Source: an uncultured Granulosicoccaceae bacterium
GTDB lineage: Bacteria; Pseudomonadota; Gammaproteobacteria; Granulosicoccales; Granulosicoccaceae
Length of the DNA stretch: 64,000 nt
Reading direction: 5' to 3'
NCBI GenBank assembly: GCA_937922675.1
Contig: CALAJN010000004.1
Coordinates: 1 to 64,000, forward strand
Position 1 is the stretch's first letter, and each line of letters begins with the position of its first letter. Of this stretch, positions 25,402 to 59,485 are shown piece after piece. The translations under genes were made by a program, and so were the position numbers. The notes beneath the pieces are model-generated. The model saw nothing but the letters and a program-made list of their open reading frames with translations. It was not told where the DNA came from and ran no database searches.

Positions 25402-26109
25402 TTAGATTTTCTCTGCAATTGGTTGCAAGAGATCCCAGCGGTTGCCATATACATCTTCAAATACAACTACTGTTCCATAGGCCTCGCGGCGTGGTCGCTC
25501 AAGAAAATGTACTCCTGACGCCTTGAATCGGGAATAGTCTCGCTCCAGATCGTCCGTTTCGAGAAAGAAGGCGACACGCCCCCCTGTCTGATTGCCGACG
25601 CGAGACAGTTGATTGTCATCGGTTGCAAGTGCCAACAACAAGCGCGTTCCGTGACTGCCCGCAGCGATGATGACCCAGCGCTTGTCGGCTTCGGCGGAAT
25701 CTTCCTCGAGTGTGAAGCCAAGCTTCTGGGTAAACCAGCCAATCGCTTCGTCGTAGTCCTTGACTACCAGAGTCACAGTTGCAATATGGCGTGACGCGGG
25801 GGTGGGTGAGCTCCCCGCGGAAAGGTCTGCAATGACATGCGCCCACTGTGCGCCGTGCAGGTCGCGGTCACCGAGGCTACCCTGGATAACCGGGCGCGCC
25901 AGTCCAAATTTGATGACTTGAAGATCCTGCAGGGCAAAGCGCGTGATCGATCTTGCATCCACGCCGAGAGCGGTGGCAACGGTTTCACCATCAAGCGTTG
26001 CCTCCAGTTGCGCATAGCTTGCGGCGTCCTTGCAAAAACAATCTATGGTGACTCTGAAAGGACCAGCGTTCTTCGCTCTGACGAGGCGGCAGAGTTCAGA
26101 TACCTTCAT
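25402..26109 (-). CDS. DUF4387-VOC fusion protein
   Basis: 235 residues with two domains. Residues 1-100 match the DUF4387 family (ELCRLVRAKNAGPFRVTIDC, ITRFALQDLQVIKFGLARPV), normally a stand-alone protein of about 100 residues next to AtuA-type genes. After a short SSPTPAS linker, residues 106-235 are a VOC/glyoxalase domain (ATVTLVVKDYDEAIGWFTQKL, GVHFLERPRREAYG, FEDVYGNRWDLLQ), with Glu and aromatic residues in the usual metal-site strand. It overlaps the AtuA-family gene by four bases and ends the tct operon. The VOC part may act as an isomerase or lyase on the same substrate. Confidence 0.82.
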   Translation of the reverse strand: MKVSELCRLVRAKNAGPFRVTIDCFCKDAASYAQLEATLDGETVATALGVDARSITRFALQDLQVIKFGLARPVIQGSLGDRDLHGAQWAHVIADLSAGSSPTPASRHIATVTLVVKDYDEAIGWFTQKLGFTLEEDSAEADKRWVIIAAGSHGTRLLLALATDDNQLSRVGNQTGGRVAFFLETDDLERDYSRFKASGVHFLERPRREAYGTVVVFEDVYGNRWDLLQPIAEKI

Positions 26110-27523: not shown

Positions 27524-29047
27524 CTAGCCGTCGCTAGCCTCGTCAGGCTCGACGCGACTCGGCTTGGTAATGAAGCGCTTGAGAAAAAGCGGTGCAATGA
27601 ACCCGACGATCGCAGCAATCCACAGTCCGATAGCGATCTTTGAGGAGTAGAGGTATTGCCAATCACCACCGGATAACACCATGGCCCGGCGTAGCGAGTC
27701 TTCCATGTGATTGCCCAGCAGTATGCCGAGGATGATGGGTACCGTGGGTACGTCCAGCTTGCGCAGCAGATACCCCAGCACACCGAACGCGATCATCAGC
27801 AGCAGGTCAAATGAGCTGCCCGACAGTGAGTAGATGCCAACAAAGGACACCATGGTTACCCCCGGTAACAGCACGCCGGGTGGCACCGAAAGCACCTTGA
27901 CGAAGATGCGCACCATCGGCACGTTGAGAATCAACAGCACGATATTGGCAATGAGCAGAGCGGCAATCAGTCCCCAGACCACCTCCGGGCGCTCTGTAAA
28001 CAGCAGTGGACCAGGGGTGATGTTCAGTGTCATCAACAAGGCAAGCAGTACAGCCGTTGTGCCCGAGCCGGGCACGCCAAGTGTCAACATGGGCACCAAC
28101 GCACCACCGGCTGCCGCATTGTTGCCAGCTTCCGGGGCAGCGACACCTCGCGGGTCACCCTTGCCGAAACGAGAGTTGTCACGCACCGTGCTTTTCTCTG
28201 CCATGTAGGCAAGAAAACTACCGAGAGACGCGCCGGCGCCTGGCAGGATGCCGGCAATGAAGCCGATGACGGTCGAGCGCAACATGGTCCCGGAGGTGCG
28301 CACGATATCCTTGACCGGGATGGTGATCTTGTCGATCTTTACACCGATCGCAGAGGACTTGCCATGGCTTTCAATAAAGATAAAGACCTCTGAAACTGCA
28401 AACAAGCCGACGATAGCCACGAGAAAATCCACACCGTCCATCAAGTGCATGTTGCCACCCGTCAGCCTTGGCATGCCGCTCGAATTGTCGAGCCCGATCA
28501 TGGCGATTGCCAGGCCAATACAGGCGGCCAATGCCGCTTTTCGCTGGTTGTTCGAGGCGATGCCGCCCAGTGTCGAGAAGGCGAGAAGATACAGCGCAAA
28601 GTACTCTGCCGGCCCGAAGAGAAAGGCCACCTGAGCAAGCATTGGTGCAAGCAGCATCAGACCGATAGTGGCGAGAAACGCACCGACGAAGGAAGCCACA
28701 CCGGATAGCACGAGGGCGTCCGATGCGCGGCCAGCCTTTGCCATGGGATAGCCGTCGAGCGTCGTCATCAATGCAGGCTCGTCCCCAGGGATATTCAACA
28801 ATATCGAGCTGATACGGCCACCGTACATTGCGCCGTAGTACACACTGGTCATCAGGATCAACGCCTCGGTGGCGTCCAGCCCAAAGCTGAAGGCAAGCGG
28901 TATGAGTATCGCTACACCATTCGACGGTCCGAGCCCTGGCAGGGCACCGACCATGGTGCCGATGATGCACCCCGCAACAGCGAGCATCAGAGTAAAGGGG
29001 TTGAGTGCGACAGCAAAGCCGTCAGCCAGTAAAGAGAATGTCTCCAT
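27524..29047 (-). CDS. tctA: Tripartite tricarboxylate transporter large permease TctA
   Basis: 507-residue inner-membrane protein with about 12 membrane segments and the TctA motifs GTMVGALPGLGPSNGVAIL (residues 26-44), YYGAMYGGRISSILLNIPG and GVPGSGTTAVLLALLM. It couples carboxylate uptake to ion flow together with TctB and receptor TctC. The ATG at 29045-29047 overlaps the tctB stop by one base (TGATG); a longer frame to 29344 runs through tctB and is rejected. Confidence 0.92.
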   Translation of the reverse strand: METFSLLADGFAVALNPFTLMLAVAGCIIGTMVGALPGLGPSNGVAILIPLAFSFGLDATEALILMTSVYYGAMYGGRISSILLNIPGDEPALMTTLDGYPMAKAGRASDALVLSGVASFVGAFLATIGLMLLAPMLAQVAFLFGPAEYFALYLLAFSTLGGIASNNQRKAALAACIGLAIAMIGLDNSSGMPRLTGGNMHLMDGVDFLVAIVGLFAVSEVFIFIESHGKSSAIGVKIDKITIPVKDIVRTSGTMLRSTVIGFIAGILPGAGASLGSFLAYMAEKSTVRDNSRFGKGDPRGVAAPEAGNNAAAGGALVPMLTLGVPGSGTTAVLLALLMTLNITPGPLLFTERPEVVWGLIAALLIANIVLLILNVPMVRIFVKVLSVPPGVLLPGVTMVSFVGIYSLSGSSFDLLLMIAFGVLGYLLRKLDVPTVPIILGILLGNHMEDSLRRAMVLSGGDWQYLYSSKIAIGLWIAAIVGFIAPLFLKRFITKPSRVEPDEASDG

Positions 29048-29487
29048 CAGGCAATCCACCCTTTGGGTACAGCGGCGAGACTGAGTCCCAGCAAGAAGCG
29101 GAACACCGCGTACAAGCCGAGTGACAGACCGATACCGGTGGCCAGGGCATGGGTTGCACGTGGGCGGATCTGGTAGCTCAGGATGCTTGCGGCAACGGCT
29201 GTCGGGATGAGAAAGCCCAGCGGTTTGAGGCTGTAGGCGTAGCCCGTCAGTACGGCAACGGCCAGGCCCAGTGCCAACCAGGTGCGAAATCCCGGCCAGC
29301 TTGGGCCGGGTCGATCCGGCTTCAAGGCGATGAGCGCGCCACACAGCGCCGCGATACCGCCGAGCATCATCGGAAAGGTCTTGGAGCCAACCGGATCGCT
29401 TAGAAAACTGGTTGGAATACGGGTTGCAGCAAAGGCATAAGCCAGGCCCGCAAATACGGCGACAAGGCCGAGCACTCGATCACTCAT
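29047..29487 (-). CDS. tctB: Tripartite tricarboxylate transporter small permease TctB
   Basis: 146 residues with four predicted membrane helices and the TctB pattern: RIPTSFLSDPVGSKTFPMML after the first helix and KPLGFLIPTA between the later ones. The ATG at 29485-29487 (MSDRVLG) is preferred over 29523. It lies between tctC and tctA in the standard order. Confidence 0.87.
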   Translation of the reverse strand: MSDRVLGLVAVFAGLAYAFAATRIPTSFLSDPVGSKTFPMMLGGIAALCGALIALKPDRPGPSWPGFRTWLALGLAVAVLTGYAYSLKPLGFLIPTAVAASILSYQIRPRATHALATGIGLSLGLYAVFRFLLGLSLAAVPKGWIA

Positions 29488-29526
29488 GAATTTTGACCCT
29501 GTGCGGTATCCAATCAATAACACGGG

Positions 29527-29559
29527 AGTGAGGGCGAACCGAATCGATCCACCCTCACT
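29527..29559 (-). terminator. Intercistronic hairpin between tctC and tctB
   Basis: A perfect 8-bp stem (AGTGAGGG/CCCTCACT) with a 17-base loop sits in the only sizeable gap of the tct operon. Such stem-loops after receptor genes usually protect the 5' message or partly terminate, giving more receptor than permease. There is no T run. Confidence 0.45.
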
Positions 29560-29580
29560 GTCAGTCTCGCTATGACGGTC

Positions 29581-30561
29581 CTATTGAATGACACCGATGT
29601 CCTTGGACATCTGGTTGATTTCAGCGACCACTTCATCAACGTAGTTCTGGAAGTCACTACCGACTCGGGTAAAGGGTGCAAGCCCATTGGCTTCCATCTG
29701 CTCGGCCCATTCGGGACTGTCAGCCACCGTCTGCAGCGCGTCGGCCCACTTTTGATAGTCCTCGTCTGAGATGTCCTTGGGCACGTACAGACCACGCCAG
29801 TTGACCGCGACGACATCAATACCTTGTTCCTTGGCTGTGGGAATGTCGTCAAAGCCCGGAACTCGTTCCTCAGTGAGGACAGCGACGGCGCGTACATCGC
29901 CAGATTTCAAGAAGCCGACGATTTCGGACATGTCTCCGGTCATGGCCTGGGTAAAACCTCCGACGGTCTGGGTCACTGCATCCGCCCCCCCGTCAACACC
30001 GATGTACTTGACCGAGGTGATGTCCGAAAATCCCACACGATCCAGTGCCATCAAGACTTTGAGATGGTCAAAGCCACCGACCGCGGAGCCGCCGGCAAAG
30101 GCCACACTGGCTGGATCTGCCTTGACCGCATCCAGCAGTTCGGGGAGTGTCTGGATCGGTGAATCATCGGCCACGACAATGACTCCCGGATCGGCACCAA
30201 TGGCGCCTACAAAGCGTACCTGGTCAGCCGTCATGCCTCCATAGGCGTTCTGTGCAAGTCGCGTGGCGGTTGCGCTGGATGCTGCAACAATCAGTTCTGC
30301 ATCATCGGCGCGCTCGGAAACCACGTGGGTAAAGGCCAGCCCACCGCCACCGCCTGCCATGTTGGTGACCTGTATTGGGTCTTCCACAACGCCGATGTCG
30401 TACATGATCTTGCCGATCGAGCGGCACGTGAAATCCCAGCCTCCGCCTGGATTGGCGGGTGCGATGCACTCTGCAGCATGGGTCACGCCGGTGCCGGCGC
30501 CGAGTCCCAGTGACAACAGCGCTGCCGCAAGGCCTGCGCTGCCTAGACGTACTTTTGACAT
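29581..30561 (-). CDS. tctC: Tripartite tricarboxylate transporter receptor TctC
   Basis: Periplasmic receptor of 326 residues with a signal peptide cut near THAAE. The Bug/TctC ligand motifs are visible: CIAPANPGGGWDFTCR, VTNMAGGGGGLAFTHV, GAIGADPGVIVVADDS and FAGGSAVGGFDH. First gene of the tct-atuA-DUF4387 operon. The promoter must lie in the 120-base gap shared with the divergent tctD, a natural place for TctD binding. Confidence 0.9.
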   Translation of the reverse strand: MSKVRLGSAGLAAALLSLGLGAGTGVTHAAECIAPANPGGGWDFTCRSIGKIMYDIGVVEDPIQVTNMAGGGGGLAFTHVVSERADDAELIVAASSATATRLAQNAYGGMTADQVRFVGAIGADPGVIVVADDSPIQTLPELLDAVKADPASVAFAGGSAVGGFDHLKVLMALDRVGFSDITSVKYIGVDGGADAVTQTVGGFTQAMTGDMSEIVGFLKSGDVRAVAVLTEERVPGFDDIPTAKEQGIDVVAVNWRGLYVPKDISDEDYQKWADALQTVADSPEWAEQMEANGLAPFTRVGSDFQNYVDEVVAEINQMSKDIGVIQ

Positions 30562-30687
30562 GAATATCTCCTCCAGGTGTGACGCTGCGCGGACGGCGCG
30601 TCTGCAGGTATCCTGATTCGTGAACCTGACATCAACCTGTCATGAGGGGGCTTCACGGATGGGTATGGCTCCGATAGGCTTGTGAGG

Positions 30688-31362
30688 ATGAGGTTCTTGT
30701 TGATTGAGGATAATGCCGAGCTTGCTGGCAGCGTGATCGAGCGGCTATCGCTCGACGGGCACGCGGTTGATCATGCGTCGAGCCTTGCCGAGGCGGACGT
30801 CTGCGCGGTGCGAGATGCCTACGATCTGATCCTGCTTGATATCCATCTGCCCGATGGCGACGGTCGTCACTTCCTGGCGCGCCAACGCAGTGCAGCGTTG
30901 CAAACTCCCGTCATCGTGCTGACCGCACGAAGTGCCGTATCGGACCGCGTCAGCTTGCTGGATGCTGGAGCGGACGACTACATCACCAAGCCTGTGGACT
31001 TTGCCGAGCTGGGGGCTCGCTGTCGAGCAGTACTCAGGCGCCACGGCCGCGGCGGAGATACGTTAACGCTTGGGGATCTGGTGCTGGATCCTGATCGCGC
31101 GGCCGTACGAATTGGTAGCGAGTCCATTGCTTTGCGCAATCGTGAGCTGCGCGTGTTGCAAGTGCTGGCGCGCACGCCAGACCGCGTGTTCTCAAAGGCT
31201 CAACTGCACGATCTGGTTTTCGGTGTGCTTGAAGCTGTGTCAGACAACGCTATCGAAGTCTACGTCGGGCGGGTGCGCAAGGCGATTGCCGCATCGCGCT
31301 ACGTGCGTATTGAAACGGTTCGGGGTGTCGGTTATCGGCTGGTACGGCTGGATGCAGGCTGA
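30688..31362 (+). CDS. tctD: OmpR-family response regulator TctD
   Basis: 224 residues: receiver domain with the acidic pair Glu7-Asp8 and phosphoacceptor Asp51 (LILLDIHLPDGDGR), conserved Thr and Lys (LTARS, YITKPVDF), then a winged-helix domain ending YVGRVRKAIAA and TVRGVGYRL. It is divergent from tctC and one base short of the sensor gene, so it should switch on the transporter when the carboxylate is present. The start could also be at 30682. Confidence 0.9.
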   Translation: MRFLLIEDNAELAGSVIERLSLDGHAVDHASSLAEADVCAVRDAYDLILLDIHLPDGDGRHFLARQRSAALQTPVIVLTARSAVSDRVSLLDAGADDYITKPVDFAELGARCRAVLRRHGRGGDTLTLGDLVLDPDRAAVRIGSESIALRNRELRVLQVLARTPDRVFSKAQLHDLVFGVLEAVSDNAIEVYVGRVRKAIAASRYVRIETVRGVGYRLVRLDAG

Positions 31363-32741
31363 TGCGTAAGCTTGCCGCGACAGGATCTATCGGGCGCCGT
31401 CTGTTGATAGAGCTTGTTGCGATTGCTGCTGTGTTGTCAGTCCTGCTCTATGTTGCCGTCAAGGCCTCATCGAGTCAGGCGGCCGAGTCGACTCACGATG
31501 GCTTGCTGGCAGCCTCTGCTGAAGCAATTGCTGAACGCCTTGCCGCCGATGAGGGCAACCTTGTTGTGGACATTCCCTATGGAGCCTTGGCGATGCTTGG
31601 TGCAGTTAGCGATGACAGTGTGTTTTATCGGGTGATTGCAGATGGTGAAACGCTTACCGGCTACCACGAACTGCTTGGACCAACACAAAGACCAAATCCT
31701 GCCGAGACGATTTTCTACACGACAGAACTGGACGGCCAATCGGTTCGGGTTGCTGCCTTGTCGCGTCGTGTTGCGCTAGCCGGCAGAACCGTACCGGCAG
31801 AGGTGCTTGTTGCGCAGACGCGCTATGGGCAACAAGCCATCGTATCGTCGGCCGCTGAGCGTGCGGCCCTGATCGGCGTAGGCTCGTTTGCGCTGGCGGG
31901 TGTGTTGTGCGCGATTGCGGTGCGCCGCGCACTGGCGCCTTTGCGTCGTGTCGCAAGCTCGGTGGAGCGACGAGGCCCTGCTGATCTTCGGCCATTGCGC
32001 GAGCCTCTGCCGCACGAACTAGAGCCGCTCGGTAATGCCCTTGATCGGTTCATGGCGCGACTGGACGCAGCACTTGAGCGAACCGAGACTCTCATTGCAG
32101 AGACAGCGCACCATGTGCGCACGCCACTTGCCGTGTTGCGTACTCGCGCAGAGACAGCCCTACGACGTACCGAAGATGTCGAGATGCGCTCGACGCTGCG
32201 TGATCTGGTGCGCGCGGTCGACGCAAGCTCACGTTCGGCCGATCAGTTGCTCGAGCATGCGATGGTTGGGCATCGGTCCGAGCGCATGAGTCTTGAACGC
32301 CTTGACATGGGACGCCTTACTGATGAAGTTGTCGAGCGTTACCGACCGGTTGCAGAGCTTCGCGATGTCGTTTTTGACTGCGAGATTGAGCCAGGTGTGG
32401 AAGTGACCGGCGACAGGGTGCAACTGGAGACAGCGTTGCGTAACCTGATTGATAACGCAGTCAAGTATTCACCCGCTGAGACTCACATAGACGTCAGTGC
32501 ATCGCGCCGTCATGATGAGGTTGTGGTTCACATTCGTGATCGAGGGCGTGGGCTTGACGGGGCCGAGCAGCAAACACTGACCGAGCGTTACAAGCGTGGC
32601 TCCAACGTTGAGGATGTGGTCGGCTCTGGTCTGGGCCTGGCGATTGTCGAGCAGGTAGCGAGCGCACATGACGGGCACATCAGTGTTGTGCCGGCTGATG
32701 ATTGCGGCACCCGAGTAGAGCTTTGTTTACCCGCAGCATGA
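31362..32741 (+). CDS. tctE: Sensor histidine kinase TctE
   Basis: 459 residues: one N-terminal helix (about 16-34), a periplasmic sensor of about 130 residues, a second helix (168-186), a HAMP-like linker, phosphoacceptor His250 in ETAHHVRTPLAVLR, and the ATPase boxes (LRNLIDNAVKYS, VHIRDRGRGLD, GSGLGLAIVEQ). Partner of TctD. Its TGA overlaps the ATG of the binding-protein gene, tying that gene to the signalling operon. Confidence 0.9.
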   Translation: MRKLAATGSIGRRLLIELVAIAAVLSVLLYVAVKASSSQAAESTHDGLLAASAEAIAERLAADEGNLVVDIPYGALAMLGAVSDDSVFYRVIADGETLTGYHELLGPTQRPNPAETIFYTTELDGQSVRVAALSRRVALAGRTVPAEVLVAQTRYGQQAIVSSAAERAALIGVGSFALAGVLCAIAVRRALAPLRRVASSVERRGPADLRPLREPLPHELEPLGNALDRFMARLDAALERTETLIAETAHHVRTPLAVLRTRAETALRRTEDVEMRSTLRDLVRAVDASSRSADQLLEHAMVGHRSERMSLERLDMGRLTDEVVERYRPVAELRDVVFDCEIEPGVEVTGDRVQLETALRNLIDNAVKYSPAETHIDVSASRRHDEVVVHIRDRGRGLDGAEQQTLTERYKRGSNVEDVVGSGLGLAIVEQVASAHDGHISVVPADDCGTRVELCLPAA

Positions 32742-33778
32742 GACGCATGTGGGGCAGGGCGGCACTCGTCTGCTTGTCTGTTTACGCCTTTGCAGCACAG
32801 GCTAGCCTGACCTTCGAGTCGGAGCACTATTTCAAAGCACGCGGAGAAGCTCTGGGGGAAGTGCATGTGCTTTCCACGACTGATCTGAGTCTTTTTCAGC
32901 CGCTGATTGAATCCTGGCAAGAGCTACAGCCGAACGTGAGTGTGCGCTACACCATTGCCTCCAGCCGCAACGTGTACGAGGCTGTCAAGACTGACCCCGC
33001 CGTCGCTGATCTTGTCGTGTCGTCTGCGATGGACCTGCAGATCAAGCTGGTCAACGACGGTTTTGGACGGCGCCACCGTACACCTGCGGTGTTGCAATTG
33101 CCGTCTTGGGCACGATGGCGTGAGCAGCTGTATGGTTTTACTCAGGAGCCAGCGTCCTTGATCGTATCAAAGCGTGCCTTTGAAGGGCTGGAGATGCCTG
33201 ATGACAGGGCGGATCTTGCACGATTGTTTCGCGAACATCCGGAACGCTTCGAGGGACAAATAGGCACCTACGATGTGCGCGAATCCGGTGTTGGTTACCT
33301 GATTGCGACGCAGGATGCGAGACGCTCTGACGCCTTTTGGGAGCTGATCGCAGCGATGGGTGAGGTGTCCCCGCGCCTGTATTGTTGTAGTGCCGACATG
33401 TTGGCCGACCTCGAGAGCGGTCAACTGGCGCTCGCGTACAATGTGGTGGGTGGCTATGCCGATGCAGCACTGGCAGCCTCGAGTGACGGGGCGATTGTTC
33501 CTCTGTCAGATTTCACACATGTGCTGCAACGTACCGCTTTCATTCCAACGGCTGCCAAGGATCCGGTGCTCGCAGGCGAGCTACTCGATTATCTGGTAGG
33601 ACCCCAGGCACGAGATGTGCTGACCGATCGAATTGGCGTACCACAGATTGATACCTCGGCATTGGCAGAAACACTGCGCTATCGCCCTATACAACTCGGG
33701 CCCGGGTTGCTCGTATATCTGGATCGTCTCAAGCGACAGCACTTCCTCGATTCCTGGGAAGGAGCTCTGATTCGATAG
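32738..33778 (+). CDS. Extracellular solute-binding protein linked to TctDE
   Basis: 346 residues with a signal peptide (AALVCLSVYAFAAQA) and a class II periplasmic binding fold of the iron/sulfate type (EVHVLSTTDLSLFQPLIESWQ, ADLVVSSAMDLQIKLVNDG, QLALAYNVVGGYA). No ABC permease or ATPase gene is near. Such orphan receptors cotranscribed with TctDE-type kinases are thought to present the ligand to the sensor; that role is inferred. Start at 32738 (ATGA overlap with tctE). Confidence 0.82.
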   Translation: MRRMWGRAALVCLSVYAFAAQASLTFESEHYFKARGEALGEVHVLSTTDLSLFQPLIESWQELQPNVSVRYTIASSRNVYEAVKTDPAVADLVVSSAMDLQIKLVNDGFGRRHRTPAVLQLPSWARWREQLYGFTQEPASLIVSKRAFEGLEMPDDRADLARLFREHPERFEGQIGTYDVRESGVGYLIATQDARRSDAFWELIAAMGEVSPRLYCCSADMLADLESGQLALAYNVVGGYADAALAASSDGAIVPLSDFTHVLQRTAFIPTAAKDPVLAGELLDYLVGPQARDVLTDRIGVPQIDTSALAETLRYRPIQLGPGLLVYLDRLKRQHFLDSWEGALIR

Positions 33779-33795
33779 AAAGCTCCGACTTGCCG

Positions 33796-34017
33796 GGGCT
33801 CCTGCATTGATTCCTGCATGCGTCGTGGCAAGCGCAACTGAAGTCGTCGATACAATGGCAGGCGCTGACGCATCTGCTCTGCTACCGCGACCAGAAACCG
33901 GTTACCGGACTGTGTGCAAATCACTTGATGAAAGTGTCGGTTCTCTTCGTAGTAGCGCTCTGCATCGTCGGCTTCGCACGCAGCCTCACAGGCATCGACA
34001 AATTCAAGCTCTGGTGT
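33796..34017 (-). pseudogene. GntR/FadR-type regulator remnant (FCD domain piece)
   Basis: About 74 codons match part of the ligand-binding FCD domain of GntR regulators: ELEFVDACEAACEADDAERYY, NRHFHQVICTQSGNRFL, then RLPLYRRLQLRLPRRM. The His in HFH and the Arg-rich RRLQL strand are typical. The N-terminal winged helix and the C-terminal end are gone. The frame stays open to 34230 and 33679 but those parts are not protein-like. A MatR-type malonate regulator is the natural source given matA-matB beside it. Confidence 0.72.
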
Positions 34018-34244
34018 ATTGTGTGCAATGCCGTGTAGCGGGGCATACGACCTTTTCAGGTGTGGAATCAATTGTCTGCTGGATTGGCTGTGACACGCGC
34101 ACTCACCAACAACTGACCGTGAACGTCTTGCCATGTCCAGATTTTCCATCCCCATTGCCGCCGCTGACGTTGGTCTGTAGATCACAGTCTTTCCATGCAA
34201 CCCCTGGTTCAAGGCACGTGAACAATACAAATGTCTCCTGCAGG

Positions 34245-34358
34245 CTCTACGAGCAGGTCAGCTGCTACACACCAGCATCTGATGTGGCGATGTGGTTCAT
34301 GTACCAGCCCATGTTGATGAACACGGATGTCTTTGATGATCTGAACGAGGCCCAACAG
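34245..34358 (+). pseudogene. TRAP receptor DctP remnant (C-terminal piece)
   Basis: 38 codons (YTPASDVAMWFMYQPMLMN, then FDDLNEAQQ) resemble the late DctP segment 'ST..WMY.EPVLISK..FD.LPEAQQ' that positions the ligand lobe. It has no start and runs directly into the dctM remnant in another frame, as after an internal deletion. Confidence 0.6.
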
Positions 34359-34360
34359 TT

Positions 34361-34726
34361 TTGTGCCTTTTGATCGCGGTGATCATCTATCGCTCGTGGA
34401 GTCCAAAGGATCTCTGGGTGGTGCTCGCGGATTCGACCCGTGAGAGCGTCATGATCCTGTTTACTATTGCGGCGGCCGGAGTGTTGGGCTACATGCTTTC
34501 GAGCTTGCAGATCACCCAGGAAATCGCGACGACAATCGCTACGCTTGATGTGAATGGTTGGGTGTTGATGGGCTTTATCAGCTTGTTCCTGTTGGTTGCA
34601 GGATTCTTTGTTTTGGCAATCGTGATCCTGTCGGTTTTTCCGAGCCTTCGACGTGGTTGCCAGATGTCGTCATGGGAATGGCTGTCACCGGCGGTTGATC
34701 AGTACCGTAGCGAGGTAGCACGATGA
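34361..34726 (+). pseudogene. TRAP large permease DctM remnant
   Basis: About 95 codons match the middle-to-late part of DctM: IIYRSWSPKDLWVVLADST, MILFTIAAAGVLGYMLSS, then NGWVLMGFISLFLLVAGFF and AIVILSVFP. Intact DctM proteins have about 430 residues; the first half and the C-terminus are missing. The open frame ends at 34726 inside the matA start. Together with the DctP piece it marks a collapsed dctPQM operon. Confidence 0.72.
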
Positions 34727-36063
34727 GCCGAATCAGTTTTCTGCAAGACATACTCGGGGCTGTCTTTACTCGTGAGTCACCAGAAGCGCTACGAGCGACC
34801 GCGGGCAGTGGCAGTTTCGTTGAGCTCTGTGATGCCTTGTTGTCCGAGCGCGGTGAAATGTCGGGCAACCGCATCGCGCGCGGGCTCCTGGCTCGATTTG
34901 CCGATGCAGACGAGCAGGGCGAGCGCGAGTTTTTCAAGCTGCTGTGTAGCCGGTTTGATATCAATGCCGAGCATTGCGTGCGTGCCGCTCAGCGCTACGC
35001 GCAAGAGACCACCGTCGCGAACCTGGAAATCTTGACAGAGAGCGTCGAGCCACGACGCCAGGAGTTGCTGCGGCGACTGAACCGTGTGCCGGGCGCCACT
35101 CACGAATTGGTGCGTATGCGCGAGCGCTTGTTTGCTCACGTTCGCGATGAGCCTTCACTTGCCCGGATAGATGTGGATTTCAGGCATCTGTTTCGAGCCT
35201 GGTTTAACCGCGGTTTCCTGGTGTTGCGTGAGATTGACTGGAGTACGCCAGCCAACTTGCTCGAGAAGGTGATCGCCTACGAGGCGGTACATGCCATCAG
35301 CAGCTGGGGTGCGCTGCGTAGTCGATTGCAGCCGTCGGATCGTCGCTGCTTCGCGTTCTTTCATCCCGCTATGCCCGATGAGCCCTTGATCTTTGTTGAA
35401 GTGGCCTTGACGCTCTCGACGCCTTCATCCGTGCGTGAAGTACTGTCGCCGGAACGCGAGCCTATTGCCGCCGAAGCTGCTGATACCGCGGTGTTCTATT
35501 CGATTTCCAATTGTCAGAAAGGGTTGGCAGGCATCTCTTTCGGCAATTTTCTGATCAAGCAGGTCGCCACAGAGTTGCGTATTCAGTTTCCTGGTTTGAA
35601 CACCTTTCGCACCTTGTCACCGATTCCGGGTTTCATGCGTTGGGTCTCCAGTATGCCTGCTCTTGCTGAAAGTCCCGATGAGTCTGTCGATCGCGAGGCT
35701 GTGAGGTTGGCGCAAGCGTTGGCAACGGGCGAGGTCGGGTCACTGGAGCCGCAGTCGCGGACCTTGCTCGAGAAGCTTGTAGCCCATTATCTTGCACGCG
35801 CAAAACGTGATGATGGGCAGCCACTCGATCCTGTCGCGCGGTTTCATCTCGGCAATGGAGCAAGTCTGGACAGAGTGCTCGCCGAGGCAGACAAGTTCGA
35901 CAAGGGTCTAAAACAGTCTGCTGGCGCCATGGTCAGCTATCTGTACGATCTCGACAAGGTGGAGGCTAACCATGAAGCCTATGCCAGCGAGCGCGCGGTG
36001 ATCCGCTCAGACGTTGTTGAGGAGTTGTTGTCCGAGACGCGGCGGGCTCGCAAAAGAATCTGA
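34723..36063 (+). CDS. matA: Malonyl-CoA decarboxylase
   Basis: 446 residues. It converts malonyl-CoA to acetyl-CoA and CO2. N-terminal helical bundle (1-140 or so), then the acetyltransferase-like catalytic domain with SISNCQKGLAGISFGNFLIKQ, the FRTLSPIPGFMRW core (His/Ser catalytic region) and FHLGNGASLDR near the end, all family hallmarks. The gene appears intact although its upstream neighbours are remnants. matB follows 54 bases later. Free malonate needs MatB first, so the pair converts malonate to acetyl-CoA. Confidence 0.9.
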   Translation: MSRISFLQDILGAVFTRESPEALRATAGSGSFVELCDALLSERGEMSGNRIARGLLARFADADEQGEREFFKLLCSRFDINAEHCVRAAQRYAQETTVANLEILTESVEPRRQELLRRLNRVPGATHELVRMRERLFAHVRDEPSLARIDVDFRHLFRAWFNRGFLVLREIDWSTPANLLEKVIAYEAVHAISSWGALRSRLQPSDRRCFAFFHPAMPDEPLIFVEVALTLSTPSSVREVLSPEREPIAAEAADTAVFYSISNCQKGLAGISFGNFLIKQVATELRIQFPGLNTFRTLSPIPGFMRWVSSMPALAESPDESVDREAVRLAQALATGEVGSLEPQSRTLLEKLVAHYLARAKRDDGQPLDPVARFHLGNGASLDRVLAEADKFDKGLKQSAGAMVSYLYDLDKVEANHEAYASERAVIRSDVVEELLSETRRARKRI

Positions 36064-36117: not shown

Positions 36118-37635
36118 ATGAGCTCGATTGTTGGTAACCCGCTGTATGACGCCATCCTGGCCGGCAGAAGGATGGGCAATGGAGATTTACTGACTACCGC
36201 AGATGGACAGGCCGTCAACGATCGGCAGTTTCTGGACCATGCCGCGCGCATTGCAGCGGTACTTGACGATGTGGGTGTTGAGGCTGGAGACCGTGTAGCG
36301 GTGCAGGTTTCGAAGAGCTGGCAGGCACTCGCCTTGTACGTTGCCTGCGTGCGTCACGGTGCGGTGTTTTTACCATTGAACACCGCCTATACGCCCTCAG
36401 AACTCAGCTATTTTCTGGCAGACGCCGAACCTGCCTTGCTCGTTGTAGATCCAGCGTCTGCTCAGGCAGCGCAAGTGCTTGCCACAAGTGCGACAGCCGA
36501 CATCACTGTGTTGACTCTAGGTGGCAACGATGATGGCAGTCTGGCGGACGCGGCTCGTGTCATCAGCCCGGCCACCTCGGTTCAAACGCGAGACGAGCAG
36601 GACATAGCAGCAATCCTGTATACCTCCGGCACTACAGGCCGGTCCAAAGGCGCGATGCTCTCGCAGCGCAACCTCTTGTCCAACGCGCAGACCTTGATTG
36701 AGGCCTGGCAGTTCAGTGCAGAAGATGTGCTGTTGCATGCCTTGCCAATCTTTCACACGCATGGATTGTTTGTCGCCGGTCACTGTTGCCTGATGTCCGG
36801 GGCGAGTATGCAGTTCCATGGTGGCTTCAAGCTCGACTCGGTGATTGCGGACTTGCCAGATGCAACGGTGATGATGGGCGTGCCGACCTTCTACACGCGC
36901 CTGCTTGACGACGCTCGGTTTACGTCCAGGCTGGTAGCCCATATGCGCTTGTTCGTCTCCGGCAGTGCGCCACTACTTGCCGAGACTCATCGCGAGTTTG
37001 AGCAGCGTACGGGTCAGCGCATACTTGAGCGCTACGGCATGACCGAAACCAACATGAACTGCTCCAATCCGTATGCCGGTGAGCGACGCGCAGGTACCGT
37101 TGGGCCGCCGCTTGAGGGTGTTGAAGTGAGATTGTCGGGTACCGATCCAGAGACCGGTGTCGGCACACTGGAGGTCCGAGGAGACAATGTCTTCAAGGGA
37201 TATTGGCGTATGCCCGAAAAGACTGCCGAGGAGCTTGCCGAAGATGGCTGGTTTCTTACCGGCGATCTCGCCACGATTGATGAGATGGGCTACGTGACGA
37301 TTGTGGGTCGTGGCAAGGATCTGGTGATTTCCGGCGGCTACAACATTTATCCAAAGGAAATCGAGGTCTTGCTGGACAGTCTCGACGGCATCAAGGAGTC
37401 AGCGGTGGTAGGCGCTCCGCATCCGGATTTTGGTGAGAGCGTGGTTGGCTTCGTCGTCACCAACTCACCGGACCAATCCCCATCAGAGGAGGAATTACTC
37501 GCCGAGATTGCCGATCGTCTGGCGCGCTTCAAGCAACCGCGTCGCTTGTTTCTGGTGTCAGAGCTGCCGAGGAACACGATGGGCAAGGTGCAGAAGAACG
37601 TACTCAGGGAGCAGGTCGCTGATCTGTTTTCATAG
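36118..37635 (+). CDS. matB: Malonyl-CoA synthetase
   Basis: ANL-family acyl-CoA ligase of 505 residues. AMP-binding P-loop YTSGTTGRSKGAM, the MatB-like LPIFHTHGLFVAGH, adenylate-site RYGMTETNMN, Asp in LTGDLATID and C-terminal Lys in PRNTMGKVQKN. The short substrate pocket residues around LFVSGSAPLL fit malonate ligases. It activates malonate with ATP and CoA for the upstream decarboxylase. It is followed by a GC hairpin. Confidence 0.88.
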   Translation: MSSIVGNPLYDAILAGRRMGNGDLLTTADGQAVNDRQFLDHAARIAAVLDDVGVEAGDRVAVQVSKSWQALALYVACVRHGAVFLPLNTAYTPSELSYFLADAEPALLVVDPASAQAAQVLATSATADITVLTLGGNDDGSLADAARVISPATSVQTRDEQDIAAILYTSGTTGRSKGAMLSQRNLLSNAQTLIEAWQFSAEDVLLHALPIFHTHGLFVAGHCCLMSGASMQFHGGFKLDSVIADLPDATVMMGVPTFYTRLLDDARFTSRLVAHMRLFVSGSAPLLAETHREFEQRTGQRILERYGMTETNMNCSNPYAGERRAGTVGPPLEGVEVRLSGTDPETGVGTLEVRGDNVFKGYWRMPEKTAEELAEDGWFLTGDLATIDEMGYVTIVGRGKDLVISGGYNIYPKEIEVLLDSLDGIKESAVVGAPHPDFGESVVGFVVTNSPDQSPSEEELLAEIADRLARFKQPRRLFLVSELPRNTMGKVQKNVLREQVADLFS

Positions 37636-48422: not shown

Positions 48423-49325
48423 TCAAGCAGTGAGGCCGCTGGGTGCGTCGGCGCCGTTCGCGCGGCAGCAGCTAACCAAGGTGTTGGCGAGCAGGCAGGC
48501 AATGGTCATGGGGCCGACGCCGCCAGGGACAGGGGTGATTGCGCCGGCGACGGCCGCGGCGGATTCGAAATGGACATCGCCGACAAGCCGCGTTGGCTTC
48601 TCGGAGCCGGGTGGGTTGTCCAGACGGTTGATGCCGACGTCGATGACTGTGGCGCCGGGTTTGACCCAGTCTCCCGGAATCATTTCGGGGCGACCCACGG
48701 CTGCCACGAGGATGTCTGCCTCACGGCAGACCTCAGCGAGGTTCGTGGTTCGGCTGTGAGCGATTGTCACCGTGCAGCTGTCGCGCAGCAGCAGCTGCGC
48801 CATGGGTTTGCCTACGATATTCGATCGCCCAACCACTACCGCGTTCATGCCCGATAGAGATCCGTGGTGATCGCGTAGCATCATCAAACAGCCGAGCGGT
48901 GTGCAGGGCACCATGGCGTCCTGTCCCGTGGCGATTCTGCCGACGTTGGAGATGTGAAAGCCGTCGACATCCTTTTCTGGTGTGATCGCGTTGATCACTC
49001 GAGCCTCATCGATGTGAGTCGGCAGCGGTAGCTGACACAAAATGCCGTGCACCGCAGGATCTGCATTGAGCTCGTCGATCAGTGCAAGCAACTCATCCTC
49101 GGTTATCGATGTATCACGCTTGTGCTCAAAGCTTGCCATGCCAGCCTCGACGGTCTGCTTGCCCTTGTTGCGCACATAGACCTGGCTCGCTGGATCCTCG
49201 CCGACAAGCACAACAGCAAGACCTGGCGTGATTCCGTGTGAGGCCTTTAACGCCGCAACACCGGTTGCGACCTCGGCTCGGACCTTCGCGGAGAAGGCCT
49301 TGCCATCAATGATCCTGGCTGTCAT
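48423..49325 (-). CDS. folD: Methylenetetrahydrofolate dehydrogenase / methenyl-THF cyclohydrolase
   Basis: 300 residues, bifunctional FolD: catalytic Lys region [14 protein letters not shown], substrate motif ILCQLPLP and NADP-binding [16 protein letters not shown]. It oxidises 5,10-methylene-THF, the product of sarcosine oxidase, to formyl-THF. It is the last gene of the eight-gene C1 operon and its ATG overlaps the fhs stop by one base. Confidence 0.92.
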
Positions 49326-50998
49326 CAGAACAATCCTTCAACCTGACCATCAGACAGCTTGATGGTTTCTGCTGCGGGTTTGCGGGGCAATCCAGGCATG
49401 GTCATGATTGCGCCACACACGACAACGATGAAGCCCGCTCCGGCCGAGAGTCTTACTTCGCGTATGGGTACCGAATGTCCGGTCGGCGCACCGCGCAGAT
49501 CAGGATCGGTCGAGAAGCTGTACTGGGTCTTGGCCATGCACACAGGCAAATTCGCGTAGCCGTCTTGCTCCCAACGCCGTAGCTGATCGCGCACCTTCTG
49601 ATCGGCGAGCACGTCATCTGCACGGTAGATGCGCTTTGCGATGGTTTCGATCTTCTCAAACAGTGGCATCTCATCCGGGTACAGGGGAGCAAACTGCGCG
49701 CTATCGCTGTCAGCAATCTCGGCTACGCGTGTAGCGAGCTCCTCGGTGCCGGCACCGCCATGAGCCCAGTGTTTGCACAGAATGGCTTCACTGCCAAGCG
49801 CTTCTACTTGCTCTTGAATCATCGCGACTTCTGCATCTGTGTCAGTGACGAAGTGATTGATGGCGACGACTGCCGGCACACCGAAGCCCTTGACGTTCTC
49901 GATGTGACGGGCAAGGTTTGCACAGCCATTGCGTACTGCATCGACGTTTTCGGTACCCAGGTCTTCCTTCTTAACGCCGCCGTTCATCTTCAGGGCACGA
50001 ACCGTTGCCACGATGACGACAGCACTGGGTGAGATGCCTGCCTTGCGACACTTGATGTTCATGAATTTCTCGGCACCCAGATCTGCACCAAATCCTGCTT
50101 CGGTTACAACATAGTCAGCAAGCTTGAGCGCTGTTGTGGTGGCAACGACCGAGTTGCACCCGTGAGCAATGTTGGCAAATGGACCGCCGTGTACAAACGC
50201 CGGGTTATTCTCAAGCGTTTGTACAAGATTTGGCTGCATCGCGTCCTTGAGCAACACCGCCATCGCGCCGTCCGCCTTGATGTCGCGGCAATAGATCGGC
50301 TTTTGCTCTCGTGTGTAGGCTACGATGATGTCACCGAGTCGTTTCTCGAGATCCTCGATGTCGTTTGCCAGGCAAAGAATAGCCATGACTTCAGAGGCCA
50401 CAGTGATGTCAAACCCGCCTTCACGTGGGTAACCGTTCGCGGTTCCACCCAGCGCCACATTGACCTGTCGCAGGGCGCGATCATTCATGTCGAGCACGCG
50501 CCTCCAGGCAACACGTCGCACATCGATCTCGAGCGAGTTTCCCCAGTGGATGTGATTGTCGATCATTGCAGACAATAGATTGTGCGCTGAGGTGATGGCG
50601 TGAAAGTCCCCGGTGAAGTGCAGGTTCATCTCCTCCATCGGGACCACCTGTGCATAGCCACCGCCAGCAGCTCCACCTTTCATACCAAAGCAGGGACCGA
50701 GTGAAGCCTCACGGATGCAGATGGCGGCCTTCTTGCCTATGCGATTGAGCCCATCACCAAGACCTACCGTTGTTGTGGTCTTGCCTTCGCCGGCAGGCGT
50801 CGGATTGATCGCCGTGACAAGAATGAGCTTCCCGTCACTCTTGCTGCGTTGGGCCGCGATGAAGTCTGCTGACACCTTGGCCTTGTCATGACCGTAGGGA
50901 AGCAGATGTTCACTTGGGATATCGAGCTTGGCACCAATTTCCTGAATCGGTTTCTTGTTGGCTTCTCGGGCGATCTCGATATCGCTTTTAACGCTCAT
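49325..50998 (-). CDS. fhs: Formate-tetrahydrofolate ligase
   Basis: 557 residues with P-loop [14 protein letters not shown] (67-80 approx.), [16 protein letters not shown] and [19 protein letters not shown]. The enzyme interconverts formyl-THF + ADP + Pi and formate + THF + ATP. In this operon it would run toward formate and conserve ATP while recycling THF for sarcosine oxidase. Four-base overlap with the FDH alpha gene upstream; one-base overlap with folD downstream. Confidence 0.93.
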
Positions 50999-53823
50999 GC
51001 TGTGGTCTCGACAGGTTGTTTTGCTGAAAGAGCCGCCTCTACTCTTACGGCGGCATATTTGAATTCCGGAATCTTTCCGAACGGATCGAGTACCGGATTG
51101 GTTAATACGTTGGCAGCCGCTTCGACGTAGGCGAAGGGGACGAAGACGGTGTCTTCAGCGACGGCACGATCGGCTCGAGCGAGAAGCTGAATCTGTCCTC
51201 GACGAGTAGACAATGCAAGCATGTCTCCCGCTTTCACACCGACCTTTCTAAGAGTCTTGGGATGCAGTGAGCAGTTAGCCTCTGGTTCGAGGGCATCAAG
51301 CACCGTTGCGCGTCGGGTCATCGAGCCCGTATGCCAATGTTCCAGTTGGCGGCCAGTGATGAGTACCATTGGGTACTCAGCGTCGGGCACTTCATCAGGA
51401 GCGATGATCGATGCCGGTGTGAATTTCGCCCGGCCTTCTGCCCGTGGGAAGCCGTCACCGAAGACGATGGGCTGGCCTGGGTCTTCAGGTGAAAGGGAGG
51501 GATAGGTAACAGCTTCTGTCTCCAGCCGTTCCCAGGTGATGTTATCGAGCGAGCTCATGGTGAGCTTCATCTCCGCGAACACTTCACGCGGTTGTGTGTA
51601 ATGCCAATCAAGACCGAGCCCACGGGCAAGCTGTGTCGTGATCCACCAGTCCTCGCGCGCATCACCCGGTGGTGAGACAGCAGGCCGCCCCATCTGCACT
51701 TGCCGGTTGGTATTGGTCACCGTGCCTGTCTTTTCAGGCCAGGCAGCGGCCGGCAGGATCACATCGGCGTAGTTGGCTGTCTCTGTCAAAAAGATATCCT
51801 GCACCACCAGGTGTTCAAGCTTTGCGAGTGCATCGCGCGCATGTTCAACATCGGGGTCAGACATGGCCGGGTTCTCACCGAGCACATAAAGCGACTTGAT
51901 ATCATCATCATGTATTGCATCCATGATCTCCACCACGGTCAAGCCGCGTTGGGAGTCTATGGTGCGGGTGTTTGGGTCGGCCGACCACACATTCGCGAAT
52001 GCGCGGCGTACGCTTTCATCGGCAACGCTTTGATAGTCAGGCAGAAACATCGGAACAAGTCCTGCATCCGATGCGCCTTGCACGTTGTTCTGACCACGCA
52101 AGGGGTGCAGGCCTGCTCCCGGTCTTCCGACATGCCCACACATCAAGGCAAGCGAGATCAGGCATCGAGAGTTGTCCGTGCCGTGTATGTGCTGTGACAC
52201 ACCCATGCCCCAGAAGATCATGCCGGCTCTGGCGCGGGCAAAGGTTCGGGCAACAGTGCGCAAGATGTCGGCATCAATGCCGCAGTGCGCTGCCATCTTC
52301 TCGGGCGGGAAGTCGGCAAGGTGTGTCTTCATGGCATCCCAGCCTTCAGTGAAGCCTTCGATGTACTGTCGATCGTAGAGCTCTTCATCGACGATCACGT
52401 TCATGATCGCGTTGAGCATGGAGACATCAGAGCCAGGTTTGAATTGCAGCGCATGTGTTGCGTGTCGAGTCAGGCCCATGCCGCGTGGGTCCATCACGAT
52501 CAAGGTGCCACCGCGTTTGGTGAACTGCTTGAAGTAGGTGGCAGCGACCGGGTGATTTTCTATCGGGTTTGCGCCAATAACGATGGCGCAGTCCGCGTTC
52601 TCGATCTCGTTGAACGTCGCGGTTACCGCGCCCGAGCCAACGTTCTCCATCAGTGCAGCAACGGAAGACGCATGACATAGACGTGTGCAGTGATCCACGT
52701 TGTTGTGACCAAAGCCTGCACGGATGAGTTTTTGAAAAAGATAGGCCTCCTCGTTCGAGCACTTGGCAGATCCAAACCCTGCCACGGCCTTGCCGCCGTG
52801 TTCGTCACGCAGCATTGACATGCCGCCTGCAGCATGGGCCAAGGCTTCCTCCCAGGAGGCCTCACGAAAAAACTCACCGAGGTTATCGGGATCCACGTTC
52901 AAGCTCTTCGGCGGTGCATCCTCACGCCTGATCAGGGGCTTCTTGAGCCTGTGAGGGTGGGCGATATAGTCAAAGCCGAAGCGTCCCTTGACGCACAAAC
53001 GCTGTTCGTTGGCAGGTCCGGGTGCGCCATCAACCCACACGATCTTCTCATCGCGTACCTTGAAATCCAACTGGCACCCGACGCCGCAGTAAGGGCAGAC
53101 CGAACGCACGCTGCGATCAATCTTGTCCATGTCGCCAACGCCGTCAGCATCGAGCGCTGTTGCCGGGCGAAGTGCGCCTGTAGGGCAGGCTTGCACGCAT
53201 TCGCCGCAGGCAACACAGGTACTTTCGCCCATGGGATCTGCAAAATCAAACACGATCTTTGCATCGCGACCACGACCGGCCATACCGATGACATCATTGA
53301 CCTGCACCTCCCGACAGGCACGCACGCAGAGTGTGCAATGAATACAGGCATCCAGGTTCACACGCATGGCGACGTGCGATGAATCTTCTACCGGCAGTCG
53401 TGCAAGGTCTATCCGCGGGAATCGCAGCTCTTCGACACCTGCGGCGTCCACAGTCTTCCAGAAGTGCGCCGAGGCATCGTGCGCCTTGTCACGTGGCGGT
53501 TGATCCGTAGCGAGTAGCTCGACCACAAGTTTCCGCGCGCGCTCGGCGCGTCGACTGTTGGTCGTGACGACCATGCCCTCGACGGGTTCGCGGATACAGC
53601 TTGCAACCAGCGTTCTCTCACCTTCCACTTCAACCATGCAGGCGCGGCAGTTGCCGTCTGATCGATAACCCGGTTCATCGGCCCAGCACAGGTGTGGGAT
53701 ATCGGTGCCGATGCGCTTTGCCACCTGCCACAAGGACTCGCCGGGCAGGGCCGTGACCTCATCGCCATCCAGCGTGAAGGTCACAGCGCCTTCGATCGAT
53801 GCATTGTCGAGTGCCACGTTCAT
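50995..53823 (-). CDS. NAD-dependent formate dehydrogenase, molybdopterin alpha subunit
   Basis: 942 residues. N-terminal NuoG-like 2Fe-2S site Cys46-x12-Cys59-x2-Cys62-x13-Cys76, two ferredoxin-type 4Fe-4S motifs ([11 protein letters not shown] at 160-170, [11 protein letters not shown] at 203-213), then the bis-MGD domain whose first cluster is CPYCGVGC (243-250). The active-site Cys is in [11 protein letters not shown], so it is a cysteine and not a selenocysteine enzyme. The C-terminus is the MGD-binding [18 protein letters not shown]. It passes formate electrons to the diaphorase subunit encoded upstream (53820-55559). Confidence 0.9.
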
Positions 53824-55559
53824 GAAGACTCTCCCGTTATTGATCCACCTCTGCCAACTTCAGCGGGAAAGTGTTTCATGACCATACGAATGGGGTTGGG
53901 AGCGGCCTGCCCAAGACCACAGATCGAAGCATCGACCATGACTCCGGACAACTCCTCGAGTAGCTCGACGTTCCAGCTATCCGATTCCATCAACTTCACA
54001 GCCTTCTCACACCCCACACGGCAAGGCGTGCACTGCCCACAGCTCTCGTCTTCAAAAAAGCGCAGCATGTTGAGGGCTGCATCGCGGGCGCGATCCTGAT
54101 CGGACAACACCACAACCGCCGCCGAACCTATAAAGGTGCCGTGCGCTTGCAGCGTGTCAAAGTCCAGTGGGATGTCGTTCATGCTGGCGGGCAATACACC
54201 CGATGACGGACCACCGGGTTGATAGGCATAAAATCCATGGCCGTCGAGCATTCCACCCGCAGCTTCGATGACGTCGGTGATGGTGGAGCCAGCGGGTAGC
54301 AATTTTACACCAGGCTGTTGTACGCGCCCGGATACCGAATAACTGCGTAAGCCTGTGCGCCCGTTCTTCTCGACGCTTGAGAGAATCTGATGACCCTCGC
54401 GTACGACGCGTGCTATCCAGTGAAGGGTTTCCACATTGTGCACCAGTGTCGGTTTGCCAAACAGACCTTTCTGGGCCACATAGGGCGGACGATGGCGCGG
54501 CAAGCCACGCTTGCCTTCGATGGACTCGATCATCGCGGACTCCTCCCCACAGATGTAGGCACCGGCACCGCGGCGTAAATCGATGTAATCGCGCGGTGCC
54601 AGCCCAGCCTCTTCGAGTGCTGCAATTTCCCGGCGCAGAATCTCAAGCACTGCTGGGTACTCGTCACGCATGTAGATGAACACAGTCTCTGCCTGGATAG
54701 CCGCGGCGGCGATGAGCATGCCCTCGAGAAAAAGATGCGGTTCGCGCTCCAGCCAGTAGCGATCCTTGAAGGTGCCGGGTTCGCCCTCATCGCCATTGAC
54801 CGCAAGATAGCGCGTACCGGACTCAGCGCGTACAAAGCCCCACTTGCGACCGGCCGGGAACCCTGCGCCACCGAGCCCTCGCAAGCCTGAATCGAGAACG
54901 GCCTGCTGCACATCATCAATCGAACGCTCGCCCTTGCGGATGCGCTGCAGCTCGGTGTAGCCGCCGTCAGCCCGGTAGTCATCAAGCTCCTGGTAGCCAG
55001 GCACTTCAGCGTCGAAGTCCCTGGCAGCAAGCACTTGATTAACGGCATCGGGTGTTGCGTGGTCTACATGACGATGTCCGATCTCAAGTACAGGTGCGGT
55101 GTCGCAACGTCCCATGCAGGGAGCGCGCACTACGCGCACCTTGGACGGATCCATGGCGTTTTGCAGCGCCGACTTGAGCGCTTGTGCGCCTGCGAGCTCA
55201 CACGAGAGCGAGTCACACACACGAATCGTCAGCTCGGGTGGTGGTGTTTCGTTTTCGGTCAACACATCAAAGTGCGCATAAAAAGTGGCGACCTCATAGA
55301 CTTCTGCCTGCGCCATCTTCAACTCGTGCGCCAGGGCGACCAGGTGTCGGGCTGACAAATGGGCGTATTGATCCTGAATCAGGTGCAGGAACTCGATGAG
55401 CAGGTCCTTCCGTCGCGGGCGCTCGCCAAGCAAGGCGCACACTTCTTCAAGTGCCGCCGTCTCGTATTGGCGTCCTTTGGGTGTGGCGCGTGCGCGACCC
55501 TTGCGACGTCCACTGTCCTCGCTCTTCCAGACACCCTTGCGCTCTGTTACTGTGCTCAT
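53820..55559 (-). CDS. Formate dehydrogenase beta (NuoE-NuoF fused diaphorase)
   Basis: 579 residues combining a NuoE-like 2Fe-2S domain (residues 30-165: LTIRVCDSLSCELAGAQ, RAPCMGRCDTAPVLEI) and a NuoF-like FMN/NAD domain (GLRGLGGAGFPAGRKW; NGDEGEPGTFKDRYWL; GAGAYICGEESAMIESIEGK) ending in the 4Fe-4S motif ESCGQCTPCRVGC. This fused form occurs in two-subunit FDH1-type enzymes. It transfers formate electrons to NAD. Four-base overlaps on both sides lock it between soxG and the alpha subunit. Confidence 0.9.
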   Translation of the reverse strand: MSTVTERKGVWKSEDSGRRKGRARATPKGRQYETAALEEVCALLGERPRRKDLLIEFLHLIQDQYAHLSARHLVALAHELKMAQAEVYEVATFYAHFDVLTENETPPPELTIRVCDSLSCELAGAQALKSALQNAMDPSKVRVVRAPCMGRCDTAPVLEIGHRHVDHATPDAVNQVLAARDFDAEVPGYQELDDYRADGGYTELQRIRKGERSIDDVQQAVLDSGLRGLGGAGFPAGRKWGFVRAESGTRYLAVNGDEGEPGTFKDRYWLEREPHLFLEGMLIAAAAIQAETVFIYMRDEYPAVLEILRREIAALEEAGLAPRDYIDLRRGAGAYICGEESAMIESIEGKRGLPRHRPPYVAQKGLFGKPTLVHNVETLHWIARVVREGHQILSSVEKNGRTGLRSYSVSGRVQQPGVKLLPAGSTITDVIEAAGGMLDGHGFYAYQPGGPSSGVLPASMNDIPLDFDTLQAHGTFIGSAAVVVLSDQDRARDAALNMLRFFEDESCGQCTPCRVGCEKAVKLMESDSWNVELLEELSGVMVDASICGLGQAAPNPIRMVMKHFPAEVGRGGSITGESS

Positions 55560-56173
55560 GCGTTGCTAGTAGTAGGGTCTTGTTGGCGGTCCTGCGACCG
55601 GACGGGGATTTCGTTGCGTACATGCTCGACGACAGTCTCTATCGCGTGCATGAATGATGCAGTAGATGAGCGAGGAGTGATCAATTCGAAGCTGTCTCGG
55701 CCGGTGCGCAAGATGATTACACCAGTATGCTCAATTACAGTGCGTGCAACGGCGTCGATAGGGAATACGCTCTCGTCCAGATCCAGAGGGCAAAGCCTTT
55801 CGAGGACCTGCCGGCACGTATCACCTGAAAGTGCAAGTATGGTCCAGGCATCGCTTTGGTCTGTCAGATAGATGCCCCGGGTGTCGCTCAGCTTTCTTGC
55901 GATGACCTTGTCCATCGCCGAGTCTGTAGATTCGATCAGGCACCAGGTCTGATCGATCTGCAAGCCGAGGAGTCTGCCTGCCAGATGGGACGCGAGGCTG
56001 CTTCCTACAGCAGGCAAGGAGCCGCCGAGTACTGCGCTGACATGTTCGCGATCGCTGGCCTTGAAGGCCAGTGATACCAAGGCGCGTTCCGTGACTTCGT
56101 AAATTGAGACAGAGCCTGTGTTCAATGTCCGTCCGCCGAGCGCCGTTGTCGGCTGCAAAGCATGGTTTGGCAT
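55556..56173 (-). CDS. soxG: Sarcosine oxidase gamma subunit
   Basis: 205 residues from MPNHALQP (56173); a longer frame to 56212 overlaps soxA. Typical SoxG features: GGSLPAVGSSLASHLAGRLLGLQIDQTWCLIES and DVSDQSDAWTILALSGD-type strands. It fills the fourth place of the heterotetramer, supporting the alpha subunit's C-terminal THF domain. 4 bases after the soxA stop. Confidence 0.85.
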   Translation of the reverse strand: MPNHALQPTTALGGRTLNTGSVSIYEVTERALVSLAFKASDREHVSAVLGGSLPAVGSSLASHLAGRLLGLQIDQTWCLIESTDSAMDKVIARKLSDTRGIYLTDQSDAWTILALSGDTCRQVLERLCPLDLDESVFPIDAVARTVIEHTGVIILRTGRDSFELITPRSSTASFMHAIETVVEHVRNEIPVRSQDRQQDPTTSNA

Positions 56174-56177
56174 GTGC

Positions 56178-59165: not shown

Positions 59166-59473
59166 GTCGATTCAGCTCCAAACGAAGCGCCTGCGACATC
59201 GCGCGCCAGCGCGCAGTCGAGAATCTCGTGTGTTGTGGTGTCTCGCGTTACGACAAGCCAGCTTCGATCGCCTTGTTCGTGAAACCACAGTTCCTTGTGA
59301 ACACCTGCAGGGTTGTGGCGCAAATGCAAGTACTCATGAAAGGCATCGAGCGTTGCATCCGAGCCGAGCTCGGCAGGGTCGTCAACTGAAGGCCTGTTGA
59401 GAAGGCTGGCATCGCCCAGGTATACGAATTCGCTCGCGTCTCGCAGACCGAGCAAAGGGTGGGGGATCTGCAT
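59162..59473 (-). CDS. soxD: Sarcosine oxidase delta subunit lacking the zinc Cys motif
   Basis: 103 residues. The usual opening IPCPYCG is replaced by IPHPLLGLRDASEF, and the later GCRRW-type Cys by Asp (EQGDRSWLVVTRDT). The conserved His in WFHEQ and the RDT strand remain. In the studied heterotetramers zinc is held by three Cys and one His, so three ligands are missing here. Gene order and overlap with soxA make the identification firm. Confidence 0.88.
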   Translation of the reverse strand: MQIPHPLLGLRDASEFVYLGDASLLNRPSVDDPAELGSDATLDAFHEYLHLRHNPAGVHKELWFHEQGDRSWLVVTRDTTTHEILDCALARDVAGASFGAEST

Positions 59474-59485
59474 CTGTGGCCCGTC

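Follow-up and report, generated by a model that had tools for sequence, protein, structure and literature searches.

The window (the whole 64,000-nucleotide stretch analyzed here) comes from the genome of an uncultured Granulosicoccaceae bacterium (G000; 3.63 Mb, 20 contigs, 100% complete), whose closest relative in our set of 27 genomes of the genus is G003. It carries adjacent, intact matA and matB genes on the plus strand, as in a malonate operon, and the earlier note had been right to call both intact. matA (positions 34723 to 36063) encodes a malonyl-CoA decarboxylase of 446 amino acids (aa) with N- and C-terminal decarboxylase domains (PF05292, 310 bits; PF17408), and its active-site blocks align with those of solved bacterial and human malonyl-CoA decarboxylases. 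We take the conserved Ser and His blocks of MatA to be the active-site residues. matB (36118 to 37635) encodes a 505-aa malonyl-CoA synthetase that aligns, active-site blocks included, with a solved synthetase of the 4FUQ type and retains the lysine of its C-terminal GKVQK motif; it also contains ERYGMTE, a MatB motif according to PMC7232532. Upstream on the same strand, domain matches identified a two-component system (a response regulator, RR, and a TctE-type sensor kinase, HK; 30682 to 32741). It is followed by a gene for a periplasmic solute-binding protein (SBP; 32702 to 33778), the third gene of this RR-HK-SBP block and today the nearest gene upstream of matAB on the matAB strand. The minus strand carries tripartite tricarboxylate transporter genes, with tctA and tctC flanking a small tctB-like open reading frame (27524 to 30561; tctC, 29581 to 30561). 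TctABC, RR-HK-SBP, and matAB form a neighborhood common to G003 and the window.

About 945 bp separate the SBP stop (33778) from matA (34723). Using the intact MatR, DctP, DctQ, and DctM proteins of relatives as tblastn queries, we found fossils of matR-matPQM from 33787 to 34698, in conserved order and strand, immediately 5′ of matA. The matR remnant (33787 to 33996, minus strand) starts 9 nt past the SBP stop and covers aa ~105 to 175 of 215. It matches the FCD domain (PF07729, 44.7 bits; cut-off, 24.3) and is 47 to 51% identical to the intact MatR of relatives (E ~1e-16). The winged-helix (GntR) DNA-binding half and the C-terminal ~40 aa have been lost, leaving only the FCD piece of a divergent GntR/FCD regulator. 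matP (DctP) survives as two plus-strand pieces. The first (34154 to 34237) covers aa ~49 to 76 at 57 to 68% identity and contains an in-frame TAG; the second (34233 to 34358) covers aa ~210 to 252 at 76 to 83% identity, or aa 208 to 254 at 68% in an alternative alignment, and abuts the matM piece. The earlier note had reported the C-terminal piece correctly and overlooked the other. DctP does run into DctM, as it had stated, with the junction at 34358. Measured against the intact locus of G018, ~1.53 kb has been deleted there, including all of matQ, and tblastn with intact DctQ found nothing left of that gene at the locus. The loss of DctQ proposed in that note was thus upheld, whereas its estimate of one deletion of about 2 kb was not: the gap is ~1.5 kb by comparison with G018, and there are several further lesions. 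The first matM (DctM) remnant (34358 to 34612, plus strand; aa ~255 to 338) is ~72% identical to intact copies and matches PF06808 (38.8 bits). In-frame loss of ~75 DctM codons near 34612 joins it to the second, a piece of the DctM C terminus recognized by codon-level comparison (34613 to 34698, plus strand; aa ~414 to 439). A 1-nt deletion after “VFPSL” interrupts this second piece, and the original C terminus then continues in another frame to ~34698.

Homology in conserved order combined with internal deletions, a stop, and a frameshift identifies these pieces as pseudogene remnants, and no complete matP, matQ, or matM lies directly upstream of matA in the window. The same queries gave no other credible match in the whole 64 kb, and reversed queries, run as a control against chance similarity, gave none at E < 0.1, which rules out chance as the source of the fragments. 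We also rejected an assembly artefact, because the flanks agree with G003 and the lesions are several and of differing kinds. The GntR FCD, DctP, and DctM fragments first described from the sequence are therefore real (47 to 83% identity to the intact genes of relatives), and the genome holds no other copy of these genes. Elsewhere in the window genome, no intact MatR, MatP, or MatM orthologue was found: the best other matches were 27% for MatR, 26% for DctP, and 35% for DctM, whereas true matP and matM orthologues reach at least 77 to 80%. A second malonate TRAP system in this genome was rejected on the same DctM and DctP values.

Alignment with relatives, which the earlier note had proposed, gave fragments in conserved order, and the malonate-locus order that it had assumed is that of intact matR-matPQM-matAB loci. 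The arrangement matR (divergent)-matP-matQ-matM-matA-matB is intact in G024, G018, G012, and G007; the importer is intact and a neighboring matR match absent in G014, G026, and G019, the last with the order PQM-matB-matA. The same order recurs across many Rhodobacterales, in which matM is mostly 76 to 87% identical to the Granulosicoccus query, and the cassette is probably common to both classes through transfer. The window is homologous to these Rhodobacterales and Granulosicoccus loci (e.g., L075, L102, and L120), with matM ~72% identical in the surviving stretch, but they are intact. The TRAP-type malonate operon matPQMAB of Sinorhizobium meliloti (Chen et al. 2010, as cited in PMC5237526 and PMC7232532) shares its gene order, gene families, and MatA and MatB products with the window; in the window, however, only fragments of P and M remain, and Q, the divergent regulator, and its operator have all been lost. 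The matRABC locus of Rhizobium leguminosarum bv. trifolii likewise has a GntR-type MatR, MatA, and MatB, but a MatC carrier lies downstream there, and the window genome has no MatC. The locus was, we are nearly certain, formerly a standard malonate operon, and its regulator, operator, and importer have been inactivated and are now being deleted piecemeal. This is confirmed as ordinary gene decay of a known operon and not a new system.

Loss of the control region is equally evident. Every intact spacer between matR and matP that we examined in the genus contains a perfect TTGTATACAA palindrome, the MatR operator, which sits 2.95 to 3.03 kb 5′ of matA in all six intact TRAP-matA loci examined. 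No copy of TTGTATACAA with at most one mismatch was found in the window within 6 kb of matA. The first ~104 codons of matR, the intergenic region, and the first ~48 codons of matP are gone, so the MatR-controlled promoter region has been lost. Transcription of matAB would now start from some other promoter, perhaps as read-through from RR-HK-SBP, which is possible because the two units are on the same strand with only a weak, chance-level terminator-like site between them. Our search for a new promoter 5′ of matA gave a single weak sigma-70-like site (33995 to 34022), not above chance. The position of the TctABC/RR-HK-SBP block may matter for matAB transcription.

Three observations on operators elsewhere belong here. 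First, intact matR-matP intergenic regions (L040, 5933 to 5984; also L042, L043, and L045, 7044 to 7095) contain TTGCATTCAA, TTGTATACAA, and TTGAATACAC as 10-mers exactly 21 bp apart, which suggests a cooperative three-site MatR operator. Second, in related rhizobial loci (Sinorhizobium saheli and S. fredii), TTGTATACAC is found 5′ of matA. Third, importer-less G025 has a perfect TTGTATACAA ~55 bp 5′ of the matA start (L066, ~7138), so that in this genome the operator has survived importer loss.

Importer loss is not peculiar to the window. In a genus-wide search, matM orthologues formed a sharp class (80 to 100% identity; next matches, ≤39%) present in 11 of the 27 genomes; the other 16 lack the importer. 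G003, also without the module, retains aa 83 to 206 of matM before matA, with a frameshift near aa 110, and this piece does not overlap the matM piece of the window. In the common ancestor of the two, matM must therefore still have extended at least from aa 83 to the C terminus, and the visible deletions are separate: those in the window postdate the split from G003, although a first inactivating lesion may have been shared. Remnants of matM also lie just 5′ of matA in G004 (aa 228 to 247 and 363 to 439) and G021 (aa 353 to 439); the genes now found 5′ of matAB in these two genomes encode an iron alcohol dehydrogenase and an alpha/beta hydrolase, and no transporters. The survival of different matM pieces in G003, G004, and G021 makes it unlikely that the open matM frame at 34361 to 34726, the TGA of which overlaps the matA ATG, encodes a functional mini-permease (a small, matA-coupled membrane protein). 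On a MatB tree, which may differ from the species tree, importer state changes at least seven times, four of them forced by well-supported branches, and the remnant-bearing genomes occupy three separate places. Importer-less genomes are smaller (median, 4.45 versus 5.98 Mb; p = 0.0009) and have fewer TRAP permeases overall, both comparisons ignoring kinship; these features fit general transporter loss. The importer and enzymes can also part without loss: in G016, G023, and G022 (L187, L188, and L189, respectively), the matR-matPQM cassette is located away from matA and matB, with matR undetected in G022. G023, a large genome, has in addition a second matA-matB pair (43% and 55% identity; L058, G023:C1:4387000-4401500) adjoining an unrelated TRAP system (DctM, 32%) and a GntR-like gene. 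That pair belongs to an additional malonate-type locus, which arose separately.

The enzymes have mostly stayed behind. matA is kept in 14 and matB in 12 of the 16 importer-less genomes; retention is not universal, since matB is missing from four and matA from two of them. We estimated dN/dS for both genes, a check that had been suggested along with the original observation. Between the window and G003, pN was 0.17 for each and pS was 0.71 to 0.76, with synonymous sites saturated, so that dN/dS can be read only as an upper limit. Constraint was similar on the neighboring HK (pN, 0.14) and SBP (pN, 0.20) genes in the same comparison. MatA and MatB thus appear, by this indirect showing, to be under strong purifying selection.

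Taken together, the comparisons lead us to think, with moderate confidence, that MatAB in this decayed operon now most likely handles malonate made in the cell or entering via non-dedicated carriers. Malonate would arise in the cytoplasm or leak in via broad dicarboxylate carriers, MatB would activate it to malonyl-CoA, and MatA would decarboxylate malonyl-CoA to acetyl-CoA; the presumed outcome is clearance of a succinate dehydrogenase inhibitor and trimming of malonyl-CoA. In mammalian mitochondria (ACSF3 with MLYCD) and in plants (AAE13), malonyl-CoA synthetase acts on internal malonate. The same reactions, with no dedicated malonate importer alongside, would be at work here, a likeness of logic only.

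We consider it unlikely, though credible, that MatAB continues to sustain growth on malonate taken up from outside by a general carrier encoded elsewhere, such as another TRAP system or an AEC-family carrier like MdcF. About a dozen other full-length DctM proteins and four AEC-family genes remain in the genome, but none of the remaining TRAP permeases is near the malonate type (≤35%), and the malonate-type regulator and operator have been lost. Nor was there a match in the genome to MatC (MatC_N, PF07158; the profile was validated on S. saheli MatC) or to MadM, for which the profile had no positive control. The search for another malonate importer that the earlier note had recommended thus gave no close TRAP system and no MatC, and the TctABC system beside the locus proved unassociated with importer loss.

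That TctABC, together with the two-component system and SBP, took over malonate uptake and its control and left the TRAP importer dispensable is a more doubtful proposal. In the window as in G003, the TctABC/RR-HK-SBP block directly abuts the decayed module, and the TctC proteins of the two genomes are 89% identical. Transporters of this kind are known to be controlled by two-component systems encoded next to TctCBA (PMC5812351). Across the genus, however, TctABC does not track importer loss and is therefore not a demonstrated replacement: a TctC orthologue (≥77%) is present in 6 of 11 genomes with the TRAP importer and 9 of 16 without it (Fisher p = 1). Moreover, TctC lies ~5 to 7 kb from an intact TRAP system in G012, G014, G018, and G024, whereas G004 and G021 have lost the TRAP system yet have no TctABC beside matAB. 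The Tct operon also carries AtuA-like and DUF4387 genes, which suggests a substrate other than malonate. At 25402 to 26109 in the window, next to the AtuA-like gene and TctABC, is a DUF4387-glyoxalase fusion; G003 has a 173-aa open reading frame at that position.

It is very improbable that matAB has no present role and is simply next to go: the matM remnant is recognizable over ~85 codons, so that loss is not ancient in the window lineage, but matA and matB are as constrained as their neighbors and, across several branches, have outlasted the importer in most lineages that lack it. With ~72% identity still preserved between the matM remnant and intact copies, the importer may have been lost recently in the window lineage, and matA and matB might still be lost in turn.

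The presence of matA and matB is usually taken as a sign of feeding on external malonate. In this genus, matAB persists in most importer-less genomes, in several separate lineages, and the window also lacks the regulator and operator. Malonate uptake should not be inferred from matAB alone in annotation, and whether bacterial malonyl-CoA synthetase and decarboxylase have a housekeeping role becomes a testable question. We tentatively extend the preferred reading of MatAB as handling internal or incidental malonate: the malonate enzymes may have been uncoupled from import several times independently in the family, yielding a bacterial “internal malonate” pathway (MatB and MatA, with importer, sensor, and operator all absent) that protects the tricarboxylic acid cycle or sets the malonyl-CoA level, with matAB rewired to the neighboring two-component/SBP operon.

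Elsewhere in the window, positions 48423 to 60820 hold a cluster of genes for sarcosine-oxidase-type subunits, formate dehydrogenase (molybdopterin and NuoF-like subunits), FTHFS, and FolD, which is probably an operon for methylated-amine demethylation and one-carbon oxidation.
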